A stretch of DNA of 64,000 nt from Candidatus Tectomicrobia bacterium (GTDB taxonomy: Bacteria > UBA8248): contig JACPUR010000040.1 of NCBI GenBank assembly GCA_016192135.1, positions 53,590 to 117,589 on the forward strand. Direction: 5' to 3'. Shown here in pieces: positions 12,869 to 62,058 of the stretch (position 1 is its first letter; every line of letters starts with the position of its first letter). The notes beneath the pieces are model-generated. The model saw only the letters and a program-made list of their open reading frames with translations. It was not told the DNA's origin and did no database searches. The position numbers were made by a program, and so were the translations under genes.

Positions 12869-12880
12869 GCCGGACTCCAA

Positions 12881-12932
12881 AGGGGATGGAGTCCCCCTTA
12901 TAATCGCCCCGTCCGGGCTGATGACTCCTGTC
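12881..12932 (+). promoter_or_regulatory. Fluoride riboswitch (crcB motif)
   Basis: The aptamer contains GGGGATGGAGTCCCCC at 12882-12897 and GGGCTGATGACTCCT at 12915-12929, the two conserved blocks of the crcB RNA. Pairings expected of the fold are all present: GGAGT with ACTCC (P1), GGGG with CCCC, and GCCC with GGGC around a short loop (P3). It lies between a good promoter and a rho-independent terminator and precedes a cation/proton antiporter gene, a known class of fluoride-riboswitch target. Fluoride binding would be expected to prevent termination. Confidence 0.9.
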
Positions 12933-12978
12933 GCCAGAGAGAAGCTGCGGCAGGGGTCGAAAGTCAGGTGCCGGCTGC

Positions 12979-14785: not shown

Positions 14786-15052
14786 ATGGCCGACCGCGCC
14801 GACTTCCGCTCCTACTACCGCGCCGCGAACGCTGTGAGCCTGCTCACCGATCGGGAGAAAACCCTTATAGGGCTTTCCGTCGCCATCGTGCGCAACTGCC
14901 AGCCCTGAGTGGACCGCCGCCTGGCGGACGCCGGGAAGGCGGGCATCGGGGAGGACGTGCTGGATGCGGCGTTCGATCTGGTCGCCGCCGTCATGGGCGG
15001 CATCGCCCAGAGCATGAACCAGCGCTATAAGGAGGCCCGGAAAAAAGAGTAG
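14786..15052 (+). CDS. AhpD/carboxymuconolactone decarboxylase-like selenoprotein (CxxU)
   Basis: An 88-residue protein read through an in-frame TGA at 14906-14908. Upstream of it the frame encodes REKTLIGLSVAIVRNCQP; downstream it continues VDRRLADAGKAGIGEDVLDA and ends at TAG 15050-15052. Both halves match the AhpD-like fold, and the TGA falls on the second Cys of the C-x-x-C motif (compare NCVPC in the protein at 10516). Selenocysteine at residue 41 is therefore the natural reading. A hairpin CCGCC-GCCT-GGCGG (14914-14927) follows the TGA. GAGGAG lies before the ATG. The protein is probably a thiol/selenol peroxidase or reductase; a true stop or a pseudogene is less likely because the tail is intact. 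Confidence 0.85.
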
Positions 15053-55141: not shown

Positions 55142-55621
55142 ATGAAGATCAAGCGGTCCTGGAAAGCGATTGTGCTGAGCGGAGCCGGGCTGGCGCTGCT
55201 GGCCGGGGTCATCGTCCTGTCCGGAAAGCCCACCCAGGGAGCGCCGGTGATGACGGTCTACAAGACCCCGGCGTGAGGGTGCTGCGGCGCGTGGGTGGTT
55301 CACCTGCGCTCGGCCGGCTTCAAGGTTGATGCGAGAAACGTATCGAGCATCTCCCTTGAGACAGCCAAGGACGAGAACGGCGTGCCGCCCGGCCTGCGGA
55401 CGTGCCATACCGCCCGGGTGGGAGACTACGTGATCGAGGGCCACGTCCCGGCGGAGGTCATCCACCGGCTGCTGAGAGAGAAACCAGACGTGAAAGGCAT
55501 CGGGGTGCCCGGGATGCCCGTCGGCTCCCCGGGGATGGAAGGTCCTGGCGCCCGGCTTTATACCGTCTACTCATATGATCGGGACGGCCGCACCCGGGTA
55601 TACCAGCAGGTGAATCCCTAG
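55142..55621 (+). CDS. DUF411/CopG-like metal-binding selenoprotein
   Basis: A 159-residue exported protein read through TGA 55274-55276. The signal peptide/anchor is at residues 5-30 (AIVLSGAGLALLAGVIVLSG). The frame then gives MTVYKTPA-U-GCCGAWVVHLR. DUF411 proteins have Cys-Gly-Cys-Cys here, so selenocysteine at residue 45 replaces the first Cys. The remainder is continuous and family-like (LRTCHTARVGDYVIEGHVPAEVIHRLL). A SECIS-like stem follows the TGA. GGAGGAGG precedes ATG 55142. As I recall, CopG (DUF411) has a thioredoxin fold and binds a copper cluster through these cysteines, so a copper or soft-metal role is likely. Confidence 0.87.
55287..55309 (+). promoter_or_regulatory. SECIS-like hairpin for the DUF411 selenoprotein
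   Basis: GCGCG (55287-55291), GGTG-GTT-CACC and GCGC (55306-55309) form a two-part stem with a GTT apical loop, 22-24 nt after the TGA. Distance and the G-T in the loop fit bacterial SECIS elements. Confidence 0.6.
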
Positions 55622-55643
55622 AGCGTTGCGGGCTCCTAAAGCT

Positions 55644-56090
55644 TCAATCTGGAAGTCCTTTCGGCCGCGCCCACCAAAGACTCAATCCTGGAACCAGCAC
55701 CCATTGGAGCAAGGGCGACACCCCTACATTCAAGAAGGGAACAATGGGCATGGGGCTGGAGTAGTTCCAAGTGCCCAGGAGATACACGTTCAGCCATTCG
55801 GCAAATATCGCCAGGACGACGCCCACGGCAATCGCCCGCCCTCCCGCGGCCCAATAGCCGGCGTCCGGCCAGCCGCTGTTCCCAGTGAGCCAAACGGCGA
55901 GCGACAAGGCGGCCAAGGCAAGTAAAGTGTCGATAATGACGCAGCGCGCGAGAAGCAGGGGAGTCTCCGAGATCAGACCCGGCATCCATCCCCGGTAAAG
56001 GGGCGCATGCAGGATTTCCCAGGCCGAGTGGCCGAACGCCGAGCTCGTGATATAGCGCCGGAGGGCGAAGCGCCGCTTCTCGGAAATCAT
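55644..56090 (-). CDS. Hypothetical membrane protein at the end of the selenoprotein operon
   Basis: A 148-residue integral membrane protein with about four helices and the motif FGHSAWEILHAPLYRGW near residue 19. AEWLNVYLLGTWNYSSPMPIVP recurs in membrane proteins of unknown function. No metal- or redox-active motif is clear. It is the last gene of the minus-strand cluster and converges on the DUF411 gene, with 22 bp between stops. Confidence 0.72.
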   Translation of the reverse strand: MISEKRRFALRRYITSSAFGHSAWEILHAPLYRGWMPGLISETPLLLARCVIIDTLLALAALSLAVWLTGNSGWPDAGYWAAGGRAIAVGVVLAIFAEWLNVYLLGTWNYSSPMPIVPFLNVGVSPLLQWVLVPGLSLWWARPKGLPD

Positions 56091-56121
56091 GGTTTTCAGC
56101 CTCAGCCGCCGTTGGGGCCGG

Positions 56122-56886
56122 CTACAGAAAGTTGTAAACCGCCGTGTCGTGAACCCCCGCCAGCAGGAAGATCACGCCCGCCAGCCGGCGGAACGCCGCG
56201 TTCCACCGGGGCAAGCCTCGCGTCCATCCCGCCGCGAGCCCGCTTCCGAGCGTGAGGGCACCCACGGCGAGCAGGAGCGGCACCGCGGTCCCGAAGCCGA
56301 AGATGAGCGGGAAGGCGAACCCTCCCCCGCTCTTCAGGCTGAGCGGCAGCACCCAGCCGAAGAAAAGCAGGAAGAGCGTGGGACAGAAGGAGAAAGAAAC
56401 CGCGAACCCCAGGAAGCCCGCGCCCCAGGCTCCATCTCCCCGGTGCATCCCTTGAAGCTTCTGGGAGAGCCTCCCGCCCACGCTGAAGCGCAGCCGGAAC
56501 GCCCCCAGGAAATACAACCCCGCCAGGATGAACGCGGGGCCGAGCAGCCTCCGGTAGAAGATGACGAAGGGGACCGACCTGGCTTCGAGGGTGGAACCCA
56601 GCGCAAACGCGAGCGCGCCGAAGATCCCGTACGCCAGCATCTTCCCCCCGGTAAACAGCGCCCCCGCACGCAGGGCGAAGGCGGACTCCCCCGGCCGCTG
56701 GGCGGCGTAGGAGGCCGCGGTCAGGTTGCCCGTCATCTGGCAGGGCGAGAGCGATCCCAGCACGCCGAAGAGGAAGGCACTCAGGACGGGAACCTGGAGC
56801 GTATCGATCCACCCGTTGATCGGACCGTACAGGGAATACGCCGCCTGCGAGAGCAGGATGTACCATTGGCCGATGAGGTCCCTCAT
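56122..56886 (-). CDS. CcdA/DsbD-like thiol-transport membrane protein
   Basis: A 254-residue protein with about six helices of the DsbD/CcdA/SafE group. The two membrane motifs GSLSPCQMTGNL and SFSFCPTLFLLF each hold a Pro-Cys or Cys-Pro pair like the CcdA redox cysteines. Its role is to pass electrons from cytoplasmic thioredoxin to periplasmic partners. It lies directly downstream of the U-x-x-U TlpA-like gene, its obvious acceptor. The Met at 56886 begins the folded part; the longer frame adds a basic extension. Confidence 0.82.
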   Translation of the reverse strand: MRDLIGQWYILLSQAAYSLYGPINGWIDTLQVPVLSAFLFGVLGSLSPCQMTGNLTAASYAAQRPGESAFALRAGALFTGGKMLAYGIFGALAFALGSTLEARSVPFVIFYRRLLGPAFILAGLYFLGAFRLRFSVGGRLSQKLQGMHRGDGAWGAGFLGFAVSFSFCPTLFLLFFGWVLPLSLKSGGGFAFPLIFGFGTAVPLLLAVGALTLGSGLAAGWTRGLPRWNAAFRRLAGVIFLLAGVHDTAVYNFL

Positions 56887-56961
56887 GGAACTCTTCCTTT
56901 TCCAGCTTCCCTCACGACGACAACCAAACCATCCCCGAACCCGAAGCCGTTCGGGCAAACG

Positions 56962-57477
56962 TCAGCGAAGGAAACGTCCGGGGTCCTTCCCGGCCTCATC
57001 CCAGAGCTTCAAGGCGTCGTCGAACGAGTAGCTCACCCAGCGCTTCCTGCCCTCGGCGTCGATGAGGACAACGGCCGGATGTCCCCGGAGGCCGTACTTC
57101 CGGAAAGCGTCCGCCGTAGGGTCCATCAGGATGACCGCCTCAATCTTTTCCGCTTTCACGAACTCCGCGACCTGGCTCCTGGCCTCCCCCACGCTGATCG
57201 CCAGGACCTGGATTCCCTTCCCGCTGGCCTCCCGGGCCAGCCGCCCGAGGGACGGCAACTGCCGTCCTCAGACGGGTCAGGTGGTCTGCCAGAAAGCGAG
57301 AAGAACAGGACTCCCGCGGAGGCCCTTGAGCGACACGGACTTGCCGCTCAGGTCCGGGAGCTGGAACCCCGGCGCCTGAGGATGATCCGGAAACAGGATG
57401 ACGCTCTGGGCAAAAGCGGCACCCGGCAGCATGAGCGCCCCAAAGACCAGCCCCAAAAGGATGCGTCTCGCGAGCAT
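56962..57477 (-). CDS. TlpA-like thioredoxin-fold protein with two selenocysteines (UxxU)
   Basis: A 171-residue periplasmic redoxin read through two in-frame TGA codons, 57277-57279 and 57268-57270. The signal peptide is at residues 1-23 (LLGLVFGALMLPGAAFAQ). The frame gives GSPVLLAFWQTT-U-PV-U-GRQLPSLGRLA, which overlays the W-x-x-W-C-x-x-C-x-x-E-M-P-x-L of TlpA/ResA proteins with both Cys replaced. The C-terminal half includes the cis-Pro loop LRGHPAVVLIDAEGR. A 7-bp perfect hairpin follows the second TGA. GAAGGGAG precedes the ATG. The neighbouring CcdA protein would reduce it. Confidence 0.87.
57250..57267 (-). promoter_or_regulatory. SECIS-like hairpin for the UxxU redoxin
   Basis: On the minus strand GGACGGC-AGTT-GCCGTCC is a perfect 7-bp stem with a G-T-containing tetraloop, starting right after the second TGA. 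Its loop is 17-20 nt from the first TGA. Confidence 0.65.
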
Positions 57478-57517
57478 GGAAAATCTCCCTTCTTCGGCGG
57501 TGAAAACGTCTTTCCCC

Positions 57518-58006
57518 CTACCGGCGCGGGTTGGGGTTGTTGGGCGCGTACTTGGCGTCGATCCGCCGCTTGATCTCGGGGATGGGCATCCCCCGCCTGT
57601 ACATGTCCCTCGCGTCCAGCGAGATGTTCTGGCAGATCGCTCACCCGAAGGCGTGCTGGTCCGTGTAGCAGTCGAGGTTGTTCTGGTGGCCGGCGCTCTG
57701 GTAGCAGCCGCAGTAGCAGGGCATCCGCTCCAGGAGCTCCGGGTGATCCCGGGCGGCCTGGTAGGCCTCCCGCGTCCTTCCGAGGAACTGGGCGGGGTCC
57801 AGGGTCTTGGGCCGGGGGACGCGCGGCGTCCCCGTGAGGACGTACCGCGGATCGGCGTCGGCGACGGTGGGATCGGCGGGGGAAGGAGCCCCCAGGTACC
57901 AGGCCCCCGCGCCCAGGGCCGCCAGCAGCGCCGCCGCGAGGAAGGCCCATCCTATCTTGCCGGAGCCGGACCTCTTTCGTTTCATGGGGGACCTCTTTTG
58001 CTTCAT
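57518..58006 (-). CDS. PCYCGC-type exported selenoprotein (UxxC)
   Basis: A 162-residue exported protein read through TGA 57641-57643. An N-terminal anchor (WAFLAAALLAALGAGAWYLG) is followed by a linker and the signature MPCYCGCYQSAGHQNN, the PCYCGC motif. Then come LDCYTDQHAFG-U-AICQNISLDA and a helical tail ending at TAG 57518-57520. In relatives I recall a Cys at the U position (Cys-x-x-Cys). The motif's many Cys and His residues suggest metal or haem binding. An alternative start is 57985. A 5-bp hairpin (57609-57623) follows the TGA at SECIS distance. Confidence 0.82.
57609..57623 (-). promoter_or_regulatory. SECIS-like hairpin for the PCYCGC selenoprotein
   Basis: CTCGC-TGGAC-GCGAG on the minus strand, with its loop 23-27 nt downstream of the TGA. 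It is shorter and less canonical than the other hairpins. Confidence 0.45.
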
Positions 58007-58040
58007 GCTGCCCTCATCGCATTACCCGCTATCCGCCGTC

Positions 58041-58802
58041 CTAATCCCCGTGCAGAAGGCTCCGGATGTCCTCCCGCAGCCGCCGCAGGGTTTCCTCCTC
58101 AAAGAGGGGGAGGAACTCCCCCTCCGTTTGCGAGGCGGGGGATACGATGCCCATGTAAGCGCCCCGCACCCGGGCCTGCCTGTCCACCAGCACGAAGCGG
58201 GAGCTGTGGATGTAGGGCTGGGTGGGGCCGGGATGGTGGGCGTGGGCGGAACGCGGTGTCAGCCATTTCAAGAGCGAAGAAGATCCGGCCTTGCCCGCCC
58301 CCGCCTTCGGCTCCACCGCGTTCAGGCGGAATCCTTTCTGGGCGAGGCGGTAGATGGCCTCCTTCTCCCCCGTCAGGAAGAGCCACCTCTCGGGGTCGGC
58401 GCGGAATTTCCTCGCGTACCCCGCCAGGACCTCGGGTGTGTCCCGCTCCGGGTCCACCGTGAGGGAGACCAGCCGGAAGTCTTTCTCGCCCGCGAATTCC
58501 TTCTGGAGCTTCGCCATCTCCGCCGTCTGCAAGGGGCAGGTGTCGGTGCAGTGCGTGAAGATGAGATTGGCGACCCAGACCTTCCCCTTGAGGCCGGCGA
58601 GGGCGACCGCGCGGCCGCTCCGCTCGGTGAGGGAGAAATCGGGCACCTCCCAATAGACGGGCAGCTCCTCCCGGCCCAGGAGCACCCACCCGGCGCTTGC
58701 TCCCGCCAGCGCGGCGAGCAGCCACAGAACGAGACCCGCATAGAACGCCGTACGTTTCCCGCGGCCAGCCGCTTCCGCTTGCCCAGCTTGTGCTTGCTCC
58801 AT
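58041..58802 (-). CDS. Sco1/SenC-family copper chaperone
   Basis: A 253-residue membrane-anchored thioredoxin-fold protein. The anchor is AFYAGLVLWLLAALAGASAGWVL. LIFTHCTDTCPLQTAEMAKL gives the Sco C-x3-C copper site. LVSLTVDPERDTPEVLAGYARKF is typical, and the late His lies in YIHSSRFVLVD. Sco proteins deliver copper to cytochrome oxidase or act as thiol reductases. It has the insert KAGAGKAGSSSLLKWL, common in bacterial Sco. ATG 58802 is chosen over a TTG at 58808; AGGGG lies upstream. Confidence 0.88.
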   Translation of the reverse strand: MEQAQAGQAEAAGRGKRTAFYAGLVLWLLAALAGASAGWVLLGREELPVYWEVPDFSLTERSGRAVALAGLKGKVWVANLIFTHCTDTCPLQTAEMAKLQKEFAGEKDFRLVSLTVDPERDTPEVLAGYARKFRADPERWLFLTGEKEAIYRLAQKGFRLNAVEPKAGAGKAGSSSLLKWLTPRSAHAHHPGPTQPYIHSSRFVLVDRQARVRGAYMGIVSPASQTEGEFLPLFEEETLRRLREDIRSLLHGD

Positions 58803-58838
58803 AAACAACCCCTATCGAGACCGGGAGACCCCCCTCTG

Positions 58839-59384
58839 CTACAACCGCAGATACGCCTCCGTATTCCCCCATTCCCCCCTTTCCTGGCGGAAGCTCCTCG
58901 ACTTGTCGACGAGAACCTGCCCGTCCTCGGCCAGGACGATCTTCAGGCGCTCCAGGGGCCGGGGCGCGGGGCCCTCGAAATTCACCCCGCTCCGGTAGAA
59001 GCCGCTCCCATGGCAGGGGCACTTGAACTTGTTCTCCTGGGGGAGCCAGTTCGGGGTGCAGCCCAGGTGGGTGCAGACGGCCAGGAGGGCATAAAAGCCC
59101 CCCTCCTCCCGGACGATCCACACCCGCTGGCTCTGCTTGTAGCGCTCGTCCACCGCCCCCGCGATGTATTCCTCGGGCTGGCCCGCCTTGAACACTGGAG
59201 CAGGCTCGAAGAGGACCCGGGGGAAGAGAAAGCGGAGGAAACCCAGCAAGGCCACCCCCAGCGAGCCCAGGACGCCCAGCCACCCCACCCAGTTCATGAA
59301 GCGCCGCCGGTCCATGCCCCGGGGAGGAGGCTTCACCATCTCCCGGGGCATCTGAATCCGAGGCTTCTCCTTCACGGCTGCCAT
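58839..59384 (-). CDS. Rieske 2Fe-2S protein with membrane anchor
   Basis: A 181-residue protein. The N-terminal RRRFMNWVGWLGVLGSLGVALLGFL is a twin-arginine-like membrane anchor. The cluster motifs are CTHLGCTPNW and CPCHGSGFYRSG (C-x-H...C-x-x-H with the disulfide Cys). It resembles the Rieske subunit of bc/b6f complexes, but no cytochrome b gene is adjacent. GGAGGAGG precedes the ATG. It lies between the Sco and Asp-box genes in the same transcription unit. Confidence 0.88.
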   Translation of the reverse strand: MAAVKEKPRIQMPREMVKPPPRGMDRRRFMNWVGWLGVLGSLGVALLGFLRFLFPRVLFEPAPVFKAGQPEEYIAGAVDERYKQSQRVWIVREEGGFYALLAVCTHLGCTPNWLPQENKFKCPCHGSGFYRSGVNFEGPAPRPLERLKIVLAEDGQVLVDKSRSFRQERGEWGNTEAYLRL

Positions 59385-59439
59385 CTCGAAAGCCTCCTCC
59401 TCCGGGGAGGGGGAAGATGCCCCCCTCCCCGGAGACCGT

Positions 59440-60372
59440 TCAGTTCCGCGCCTGGTTCTGCTTCTTCCAGGACTTCCCGCCGTCCCCGCTCCGGTAGATC
59501 GTTCCTTCCGTCGTCGAGACGAAGATCTCCTCGGGACGCTTGGGGTTCACCGCCACGGCGGCAAGTTCCTTCAACTCGGGCGACATGGAAACCCACGCGC
59601 GGCCCCCGTCCGCGCTCCGGAAGAGCCCCTGGAGCATGGCCGCGTACATGACCTGCGCGTTCCCCGGGTCCGTCGTGAACCCATGCACCGTCCGTCTCGC
59701 GGGCAGACCGCCCACGTTGAGGAAGCCTCAGAATCAGTCCGGGCTCTTGAACAGGCCCTCCGTGGTGCCCGCGTAGAGGTAGATGCCCCCCATGCCGGTC
59801 GAGAGGTTCACCGAGGCGAGGGACTTCACCTCCCCCTTCGGGCCGTCCGCCACGCGCTCCCAGCTCTTCCCGCCGTCCCGGGTGCGGTAGATGCCCTCGG
59901 CCCCGTCCCGGACGGCCGCGTGGAGCTTCTCCGTGGAGTTGGGGTCGAAGGCGAGGCCGTGGATGTCCTGGCCGCCCAAGCCCTCGCTCATCCGCGCCCA
60001 GGTGGCGCCACCATCCACCGTCTTGAAGACCCCCGCCTCGTGCGTCCCGAGGTAGATGACCTTCGGGTTCCTCATGTCCGGGGCGATGGACATGACCTCC
60101 AGCTGGGGATGCCGGGGCGAGACCTTGGCCTCCTTCCACGTCTTCCCGCCGTCCTCGCTCCGCAGGAGGGCGTGATGCGTCCCCATCCAGAGGGTTTTGC
60201 CCCCGGCGTCCGTCACGAGCGCATGGACGTGCCCGTACCGGAAGCCGTCTTTCTCTCCCTGGGATGGCGAGGCCGCCAAGCCCGGGGAAGCCGCGCCGGC
60301 GCCCGCGAGCGAGAGAAGCGCCCCAAGGGCGCACGCGCCTCGCAGATTTCTTAGGCCCAATATCCGTCTCAC
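59440..60372 (-). CDS. Asp-box (BNR-like) propeller selenoprotein with a UxU motif
   Basis: A 310-residue exported repeat protein read through TGA 59734-59736 and TGA 59728-59730. The signal peptide contains ACALGALLSLAGAGAASPG. Asp-box turns recur: SEDGGKTW, TVDGGATW, TRDGGKSW, SADGGRAW and SGDGGKSW. At the place of one such turn the frame reads LFKSPD-U-F-U-GFLNVGG, so two selenocysteines (residues 213 and 215) replace an apparent Cys-Phe-Cys. The next repeats continue in frame to TGA 59440. A GGTCT-loop hairpin follows the second TGA. GTG 60372 has a perfect AAAGGAGGT site and overlaps the upstream stop. It may be a metal- or selenol-active propeller. Confidence 0.87.
59699..59715 (-). promoter_or_regulatory. 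SECIS-like hairpin with GGTCT loop
   Basis: On the minus strand GTGGGC-GGTCT-GCCCGC is a 6-bp stem (one G-T pair) whose loop is 19-23 nt after the second TGA. I recall GGUCU as the SelB-binding loop of the E. coli fdhF SECIS; the distance also matches. Confidence 0.75.
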
Positions 60373-60755
60373 GAGCGGACCTCCTTTATGGGTTCCTCCA
60401 AAACATTCTCCGCCAGGGGGACCGGCGGGGCGGCCGCTCCGCCCGCGCCCGGCTGCTGGCGCGACATCCGCCACATCATGAAGCCCATCGCGGCGGGACA
60501 CGCGAGAAAGGCGAGTGTGGAGAGGAGCGAGGCCCCGGTGATGCCGAGGACGCCCCCGAAGAGAGGCAGCGCCGCCAGCAGGAGAATCGGCGCGGCGCAG
60601 CAAGCGGCCATCTTCAGGTATCCCATGTGCCCGCCGCCCGGGTGGCAGCCGGCCCCGGCCCCTTCCGGCGCGGCTCCGCTGAATGGCTCAGCTCCCTTTG
60701 ACGGCTCCGGCTTACGAACCTCGGCGGGAGCGCTTTGCCGATCTTCTTTCGTCAT
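60369..60755 (-). CDS. Small membrane protein with Cys/His/Met motifs
   Basis: A 128-residue protein. A charged N-terminal tail is followed by GCHPGGGHMGYLKMAACCAAPILLLAALPLFGGV and a second helix TLAFLACPAAMGFMMWRM. The Cys-Cys pair at the head of helix 1 resembles MerT/DUF2933-type metal-related proteins. The stop overlaps the GTG of the propeller gene. GGAGG precedes ATG 60755. Confidence 0.7.
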   Translation of the reverse strand: MTKEDRQSAPAEVRKPEPSKGAEPFSGAAPEGAGAGCHPGGGHMGYLKMAACCAAPILLLAALPLFGGVLGITGASLLSTLAFLACPAAMGFMMWRMSRQQPGAGGAAAPPVPLAENVLEEPIKEVRS

Positions 60756-60837: not shown

Positions 60838-61296
60838 TTAATAAATGGAGCGGGCGTGCCCCGTGCGCTTGTCCACGATGACCTTGTCCACGAGGGCGCC
60901 GTCCTTCGTCGTGATCTCCACGACAAAGCTGGCCGTTTCCTCCGTCACCTTCCCCGCCTTGAGGTTCGGGTTGCGGAGGTTCGTCAGGTATTGCTTGACG
61001 ATGGCTTCGGCCCTCTCCTTGGTGACGGGCTCGGCGGAGGCGGGCGAGGCCTCCATCATGCGGCCGCACTCGTTCATCATCCGCATCATGCCCATCATCC
61101 CGCCCATCCCGCCTTGACCACCCATCATCCCGCCGCCCTGGCCCATCATGCCGCCTTGACCCATTCCGCCTTGCCCCATCATGCCGGGGCCCATCATGCC
61201 CCCGCCTTGCCCGCCCATCATGCCCCCCTGGGCGAAGGCGTAGCCGGCGGCGGCGAGAGTCAGCAGTGCGGCGAGCGCGATGATTTTTCTGTTCAT
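60838..61296 (-). CDS. Methionine-rich exported protein
   Basis: A 152-residue secreted protein. The signal peptide IIALAALLTLAAAGYAFAQ is followed by a Gly-Met repeat region (GGMMGGQGGGMMGPGMM and onward) of about 45 residues, then a PepSY-like C-terminal domain (ERAEAIVKQYLTNLRNPNLKAGKVTE, FVVEITTKDGALVDKVIVDKRTG). Met-rich runs bind Cu(I) in several copper-resistance proteins, so a copper-buffering role is plausible. Confidence 0.75.
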   Translation of the reverse strand: MNRKIIALAALLTLAAAGYAFAQGGMMGGQGGGMMGPGMMGQGGMGQGGMMGQGGGMMGGQGGMGGMMGMMRMMNECGRMMEASPASAEPVTKERAEAIVKQYLTNLRNPNLKAGKVTEETASFVVEITTKDGALVDKVIVDKRTGHARSIY

Positions 61297-61502: not shown

Positions 61503-61772
61503 CTAGGCGCGGGGTCTAGGAGGCGGCGTCTCGGGAAGGTGAGTCGTCTGGTCGAGGAAAGCGTAGGGGTGAGCCGCGAAACGGGCCTGCGGCTCCGGGG
61601 GGAGAGCCGGGTGGGCCTCTCCCTTGACGGTGGTCCCGCAGGGCCGGTTCTGGGAAGGGCACGGCGAGTTGGTGCCGCACACCGCCATCATGCCGGGCGA
61701 ACACGCCATGGCCGGGAAAGATACGGCCGCCAGGAACGCGAGCGCCAGGGCCGTCATCGCCAGCTTTCTCAT
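61503..61772 (-). CDS. Hypothetical exported Cys-rich protein
   Basis: An 89-residue protein with a signal peptide (TALALAFLAAVSFPAMA) and then CSPGMMAVCGTNSPCPSQNRPCG, with four Cys in 20 residues, and a Pro-rich tail. It has no known family. It is the most upstream minus-strand gene of the island. ATG 61781 is an alternative start. Confidence 0.55.
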   Translation of the reverse strand: MRKLAMTALALAFLAAVSFPAMACSPGMMAVCGTNSPCPSQNRPCGTTVKGEAHPALPPEPQARFAAHPYAFLDQTTHLPETPPPRPRA

Positions 61773-61938
61773 GGGGTCCATCCCGAAGCGGCGCGGGGGG
61801 AAAAGCGGGTTCCCTCCATCCAGAACCATGTTCTTTCCAAAAGATTCCCTTGTCAACGGCCCCCCTTGGCGCGGTCTGCCCCCCGGGCCTACATTCAGAG
61901 GGAGAACGCCGCCTCGGCCGCCTCCGGAGGGCGCGCAC

Positions 61939-62058
61939 ATGATGGACGGAATGGGCGGCATGGGCGGCATGATGTGGGCCGGCGGCCTGGCCTGGCTGCT
62001 CCTCCTCGTCGTCCTGGTCCTCGCCGCCGCCGCGCTGGTCAAGTATTTGAGGGCGTAG
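61939..62058 (+). CDS. Met-rich single-helix small membrane protein
   Basis: A 39-residue protein, MMDGMGGMGGMMWAGG then a single hydrophobic helix and a basic end (KYLRA). GGAGG lies 9 bp before the ATG. Short Met/Gly-rich one-helix proteins of this form often accompany copper-resistance genes. It is divergent from the minus-strand operon, on the same strand as the DUF411 gene. Confidence 0.6.
   Translation: MMDGMGGMGGMMWAGGLAWLLLLVVLVLAAAALVKYLRA

Follow-up and report, generated by a model that had tools for sequence, protein, structure and literature searches.

Six cysteine positions in four proteins of an envelope-gene island from an uncultured Candidatus Tectomicrobia bacterium are apparently read as selenocysteine

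In a 64,000-nucleotide stretch of an uncultured Candidatus Tectomicrobia genome (assembly GCA_016192135.1, contig JACPUR010000040.1, positions 53,590 to 117,589 of the forward strand; hereafter the window) an island of envelope genes contains four reading frames that are interrupted by TGA codons. This raises the questions of whether these codons are read as selenocysteine (Sec; U in motifs), and of what a block of such proteins might be doing in the cell envelope. The original prediction, made from the sequence alone, proposed a cluster of four selenoproteins with six Sec residues, acting in the periplasm on copper or other soft metals, or in oxidant repair. The four genes, with their predicted Sec residues, are as follows:

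55142..55621, plus strand: Sec-CopG, a DUF411 protein (PF04214, 89.6 bits) with Sec 45 (TGA 55274-55276) as the first residue of the CxCC motif (U-G-C-C)
56962..57477, minus strand: TlpA/ResA-like protein (PF00578) with the motif U-P-V-U, Sec 67 (TGA 57277-57279) and Sec 70 (TGA 57268-57270)
57518..58006, minus strand: PCYCGC (CYCXC family) selenoprotein with Sec 122 (TGA 57641-57643); NF041379, 121.6 bits against a cut-off of 90
59440..60372, minus strand: Asp-box beta-propeller selenoprotein with the motif D-U-F-U-G, Sec 213 (TGA 59734-59736) and Sec 215 (TGA 59728-59730)

All six TGAs were recovered in frame where they had been predicted (first bases 55274, 57641, 57277/57268 and 59734/59728), each within an otherwise open, family-like frame, and all six align with conserved redox or metal-binding Cys columns of the homologues, as had been supposed for these families. 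Relatives were searched with one genome per species, and the TGA is retained in independent assemblies at every position except U70 of the TlpA-like protein; no close relative was found that truly terminates at any of the island TGAs. Comparison with same-genus orthologues gave ratios of nonsynonymous to synonymous substitution (dN/dS) 3' of the TGA of 0.27 for the DUF411 gene and 0.58, on 40 codons only, for the PCYCGC gene, while the propeller gene, compared with its orthologue in the same-genus genome G002, gave 0.30 on each side of the TGA. In a strict codon-usage test of both flanks, only four of the 626 window TGAs that are open on both sides passed, three of these being TGAs of the island; those of the DUF411 and TlpA genes failed the composition test. 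Further in-frame TGAs terminate the TlpA gene (56962) and the propeller gene (59440), and are taken as true stops because homology ends there. Elsewhere in the window, a TGA at 14906 (plus strand) is likewise flanked on both sides by coding-like composition; it may simply close one gene, with a second gene starting after it.

The window belongs to a 3.92 Mb bin of 41 contigs that is 96.8% complete, and three of the genes for Sec synthesis and insertion were detected in it, namely selA (L009:6673-8112, identified by inspection), selB (389 bits, cut-off 242) and selC (74.8 bits, cut-off 47, anticodon TCA). The original prediction also noted a hairpin after each TGA at the place of a selenocysteine insertion sequence (SECIS), and such a hairpin, in which the first two positions of the loop include G, is indeed present 3' of every one:

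55289..55309, plus strand: SECIS-like hairpin of the DUF411 gene, its loop about 21 nucleotides after the TGA
57250..57267, minus strand: SECIS-like hairpin of the TlpA gene for Sec 67, 16 nucleotides from U67 and at the same place in relatives with the TGA
57223..57241, minus strand: second hairpin of the TlpA gene, 33 nucleotides from U70, a distance that suits Sec 70; seen in this genome only
57608..57624, minus strand: SECIS-like hairpin of the PCYCGC gene, following the TGA
59698..59716, minus strand: SECIS-like hairpin of the propeller gene, CGUGGGC-GGUCU-GCCCGCG, 24 and 18 nucleotides from Sec 213 and Sec 215

The TlpA hairpins form a tandem pair, and the one propeller hairpin can, judging from its position, serve both Sec 213 and Sec 215. 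In this window of 69% G+C, 27% of TGAs are followed by a hairpin of -7 kcal/mol or better and 4-6% by one of about -12 kcal/mol; since such energies are not rare, the mere presence of a hairpin is weak evidence, and its energy was rejected as proof of a SECIS by itself. The weight of these elements lies instead in their recurrence at the same place in orthologues, in the covariation of the propeller hairpin, and in the Cys homologues of the propeller and DUF411 proteins, which served as a control and display no comparable hairpin at that place. In every orthologue, that of the more AT-rich G115 included, the propeller hairpin (loop GGUCU) lies at an unchanged distance; of its seven pairs, two have changed on both sides (CG to GC and CG to UA), and 97% of the alignment cells pair, as against 34-54% when the partner strand is slid. 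As this comparison involves just five distinct sequences of a coding region, the covariation constitutes support rather than proof.

The machinery, the pairs of Sec and Cys homologues and the conservation of both TGAs and SECIS-like elements together support four selenoproteins carrying six Sec residues, which on these sequence criteria we regard as near certain. Several observations nevertheless weigh against the reading of the locus as a whole. No selD was found above cut-off in the bin, a TIGR00476 match on contig 13 (83 bits) being rejected as ThiL-like; as both same-genus genomes (G001 and G002) possess a selD that itself contains an in-frame TGA, and most genomes of the family do so too (L225-L232), this is probably a gap in the bin. 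Likewise, at E 1e-60 no selB was recovered from G001, G002, G074 and G090, which carry some of the TGA genes, and this may reflect incompleteness or divergence. U70 of the TlpA-like protein aligns with Cys in all relatives seen and is encoded by TGA in this genome alone, so that the part of the prediction concerning the second TlpA Sec (57268) stands on a single genome. Finally, among the relatives compared all four Sec genes occur together only here. The alternative that these are not selenoproteins, the TGAs being assembly errors, real stops in decayed genes or reassigned codons, could appeal to the origin of the sequence in a metagenome bin, to the bin lacking selD and to the restriction of U70 to one genome. 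We consider it exceedingly improbable, and rejected stop-codon reassignment, gene decay and assembly error alike, given the identical TGAs in independent assemblies, the purifying selection 3' of them, the presence of selA, selB and selC, the SECIS covariation and the use of TGA as a normal stop in the same TlpA and propeller genes. None of the observations that the original prediction had named as fatal to it (a genome devoid of sel genes, close relatives truly ending at these codons, read-level evidence of error) was made. As a separate observation, the PCYCGC gene with TGA in G090 (L194, G090:C46) lies in a genome that is 97% complete and in which selB is among those not found at E 1e-60.

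What, then, are these four proteins? The DUF411 protein scores well above the PF04214 cut-off of 27 bits, and a profile built from it and its relatives recovered one solved structure, that of CopG (entries 6WIS/6WJE, E 2e-38). Its TGA is shared by six genomes of the family (the window genome, G002, G003, G007, G008 and G012; 45-75% identity to the window protein), other DUF411 lineages have Cys at the position of Sec 45, and, beyond the CxCC motif with Sec as its first residue, Met 125 and Met 132 are invariant. According to published summaries, which concern Pseudomonas aeruginosa CopG only, this protein binds a tetranuclear copper cluster via CxCC and two Met residues, has a part in anaerobic copper resistance and possibly oxidises Cu(I) (PMC7558416, PMC8456105). 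A TVP38/TMEM64-like gene adjoins the DUF411 gene both in G008 (L203 7064-7828, by inspection) and in a plasmid operon of Jiella (L217 16570-17325).

The Asp-box propeller retains its TGA in six genomes, namely that of the window, G002 (78% identity), G048 (56%), G074 (53%) and G115/G146 (36-39%), with the motif D-U-F-U-G in Tectomicrobia and G115/G146 and D-C-F-U-G in G048 and G074, while Cys homologues on alphaproteobacterial plasmids display D-C-F-C. Propellers without the motif have an ordinary Asp-box D-G-G-x-x-W in the same columns (second copy of L219, and L220), so that D-U-F-U-G represents the Asp-box turn of the fourth blade in remodelled form. Modelled with Cys substituted for Sec, the window protein has its strands arranged as in a six-bladed propeller (mean predicted local distance difference test score 79), and the solved structures that match the model best are Asp-box propellers, among them GH74 enzymes, DAIP and Ycf48. 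Membership in the Ycf48 family (NF010237; 63.6 bits against a cut-off of 326) and in the F510_1955 family of glycosylhydrolases (NF045728; 100.9 against 175) was rejected. A scan of genome contigs recovered one close relative (L067), the remainder being ordinary Asp-box propellers at ~25-30% identity, and viral contigs yielded no relative; the phylum-level searches around G074 and G115 covered 1 and 4 genomes only.

The PCYCGC protein scores above the cut-off of the model named 'CYCXC family (seleno)protein' (NF041379), and the TGA is found in about 12 genomes, three homologues having Cys instead; the window genome contains another PCYCGC selenoprotein gene, its TGA identically placed, at G000:C30:35703-36131 (L190, L201). 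The TlpA-like protein contains a PF00578 domain (86.4 bits, cut-off 26), its U-P-V-U being a UxxU motif, and U67 is encoded by TGA in five other loci, one of them directly 3' of the Sec-propeller gene of G074. Families of this kind are already catalogued as selenoproteins: the 2026 catalogue, which covers 119 families and subfamilies of prokaryotic selenoproteins, contains CYCXC proteins and UxxC/UxxU PF00578 proteins, and has no DUF411 protein and no Asp-box propeller (PMC13188914). NCBIfam similarly has no model that names either, and Sec-CopG and the propeller would hence define two new selenoprotein families. A survey of the open literature, with subscription papers outside its scope, found nothing relevant on DUF411 or propeller selenoproteins or on an operon of this composition. 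The claim that the composition had not been described accordingly holds as far as no published match was found; the gene set has a Cys counterpart, and large selenoprotein operons, SAO and Tso, have been described.

The remaining genes of the island provide the context in which the Sec proteins would act:

55644..56090, minus strand: small membrane protein after CcdA, family not recognised (no Pfam match); not found in the G002 island, and of doubtful membership in the system
56122..56886, minus strand: CcdA/DsbD-like membrane electron carrier (PF13386, 60 bits); 85% identity in G002, 45% in G115
58041..58808, minus strand: Sco/SenC copper chaperone-like thioredoxin-fold protein with CTDTC (PF02630, 96 bits)
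58839..59384, minus strand: Rieske iron-sulphur protein (PF00355, 40.9 bits)
60369..60755, minus strand: small membrane protein whose hydrophobic segment contains a vicinal CC, no Pfam match; homologues adjoin the propeller in G002 and G115
60838..61296, minus strand: exported protein rich in Met and Gly, whose gene opens the block; 82% identical in G002

On the minus strand the genes run in the order Met-rich protein, CC membrane protein, propeller, Rieske, Sco, PCYCGC, TlpA and CcdA, separated by short gaps or overlapping, and the DUF411 gene is convergent on the plus strand. In G002, which corresponds to Candidatus Tectomicrobia bacterium RIFCSPLOWO2_12_FULL_69_37 (MGDP01000052), PCYCGC and TlpA are absent between Sco and CcdA, and G001 keeps Sco with the Sec form of PCYCGC. 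Just past the island, 61503-62058 encodes, on the minus strand, a short Cys-rich protein that looks exported and, at the end of a plus-strand frame, a short membrane protein rich in Met. An Rfam scan of the window gave a sole match, a fluoride riboswitch at 12873-12937 (plus strand, 49.4 bits).

Considerable clues regarding function come from the Cys versions. Plasmid operons of Tritonibacter, Salipiger and Marinovum combine a multicopper oxidase, the Cys propeller, DUF411 (in Marinovum annotated as a 'putative metal-binding protein' and recognised by alignment), cytochrome c, DsbE, TlpA, DsbA and Sco with CueR or a Cu(I)-responsive regulator, and in the first two also with PCu(A)C. A Pseudosulfitobacter plasmid carries the multicopper oxidase, propeller, DUF411 and cytochrome c, comparable sets occur on plasmids of Acuticoccus, Limimaricola, Rhodopseudomonas and Jiella, and CtaG-like proteins are also encoded in related operons. 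In pSinB, DsbE, TlpA, propeller, Sco, CcdA and Rieske genes adjoin copper pumps and a chaperone. DUF411 lies within the operon in eight of the 11 plasmids examined, the exceptions being those of Nitratireductor (where IS6 elements follow), pSinB and Rubrobacter; several of the plasmids are predicted to be conjugative. By inspection, the last gene of the Sec-propeller clusters in G115 and G146 is multicopper oxidase-like, and the propeller, DUF411, Sco, TlpA and CcdA are common to the window and the plasmids. The Jiella plasmid additionally encodes a GDCCVxC (seleno)protein beside mercury genes (L217 4374-4598).

The identity of DUF411 with CopG and the occurrence of the Cys versions in operons with multicopper oxidase, Sco, PCu(A)C and CueR support a copper role, and we consider it likely that the island is a Sec version of a copper-resistance or periplasmic copper-redox operon, in which the chemistries of selenium and copper seem to meet in a single pathway. 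The copper part of the original proposal gains support from CopG and the plasmid operons, whereas oxidant repair received no specific support. To be set against copper are that no multicopper oxidase or CueR was recognised adjoining the island, and that we infer the metal from the neighbours and one family. A related possibility, and the main rival, is that the island serves not resistance but the assembly of the copper centres of a respiratory enzyme (a CuA-type oxidase or similar), with Sco, TlpA, CcdA and CopG as a line for metallation and thiol reduction and the Rieske protein in the respiratory chain. Sco, TlpA and CcdA are indeed classical assembly factors, and the plasmid operons too contain CtaG-like proteins, PCu(A)C and cytochrome c; yet no oxidase core subunit was seen adjoining the island or within those stretches of the plasmids that were read, and CueR and multicopper oxidase indicate copper stress. 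We hold this alternative to be unlikely, though the gene set does not cleanly separate resistance from assembly. Considerably less probable is that the metal is mercury or another soft metal, with the CC membrane protein as a MerT-like importer and the selenols binding Hg(II) or organometals. The CC motif in the protein at 60369-60755, which resembles MerT in appearance only, the merB and MerT genes beside the Cys operon on the Jiella plasmid and the published precedent of SAO for Sec-assisted handling of organometals speak in its favour, but no island protein matched a Mer family, neither MerA nor MerR was found there, and CopG, Sco and multicopper oxidase indicate copper.

For the copper-handling reading a plausible scheme can be proposed from family memberships and motifs. 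The four Sec proteins look exported. CcdA would carry reducing power over the membrane to the TlpA-like protein, whose UPVU motif might keep reduced the selenol and thiol sites of its periplasmic partners, namely Sec-CopG, the Asp-box propeller, PCYCGC and Sco. Sco and CopG, going by their families, would handle copper, the Sec of Sec-CopG being one ligand of a CopG-type copper cluster and helping to oxidise or pass on Cu(I). The D-U-F-U-G turn of the propeller might form a diselenol on the protein surface, either binding Cu(I) or cycling through a diselenide. Being softer and more acidic than thiols, selenols would suit Cu(I). The more specific proposition, that Sec itself coordinates copper in a polynuclear cluster of the CopG type and that U-F-U is a new copper or redox site, most of the periplasmic copper line having thus passed from thiol to selenol, is advanced tentatively, at somewhat less than even chances.

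These observations would link selenium to copper homeostasis via a defined gene set with Cys counterparts on plasmids. They add Sec-CopG, and an Asp-box propeller with two Sec residues two positions apart, to the selenoprotein families, and indicate an uncharacterised copper operon with propeller and CopG genes as neighbours; no published description of its Cys plasmid form was found in the same literature. The existence of Cys and Sec versions of one system makes possible a direct comparison of what Sec contributes to copper chemistry.

Among known systems, SAO and Tso are reminiscent of the island in having several selenoprotein genes in one block and a suggested soft-metal or redox role, but the gene sets differ, and membership was rejected, as none of the ten island proteins matched a Sao or Tso NCBIfam model. 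The PCYCGC protein is an ordinary member of CYCXC/OS_HP4 (NF041379 / PF13798), with U-x-x-C at the catalogued place and distinguished only by its larger island context; the TlpA-like protein, compared by family and motif, shares its fold family and UxxU with the Prx-like thiol:disulfide oxidoreductase selenoproteins (PF00578, UxxC/UxxU). By both sequence and model the propeller resembles Ycf48 and other Asp-box beta-propellers (PF14870, NF010237) and the F510_1955 proteins (NF045728), but falls far under both NCBIfam cut-offs and has D-U-F-U-G as its fourth Asp-box. The copper-linked plasmid operons of Roseobacters and rhizobia, which are all Cys and include cytochrome c, DsbE/DsbA and often multicopper oxidase and CueR, none of these recognised in the window, share with the island the same propeller (D-C-F-C), DUF411, TlpA, Sco and CcdA, and in pSinB the Rieske protein; PCYCGC is a gene of the island seen in none of those examined. 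With CopG/CutG (DUF411, PF04214; 6WIS, 6WJE) the island protein shares the whole-domain match, the position of CxCC and both conserved Met residues, differing in that Sec takes the place of the first Cys of CxCC.

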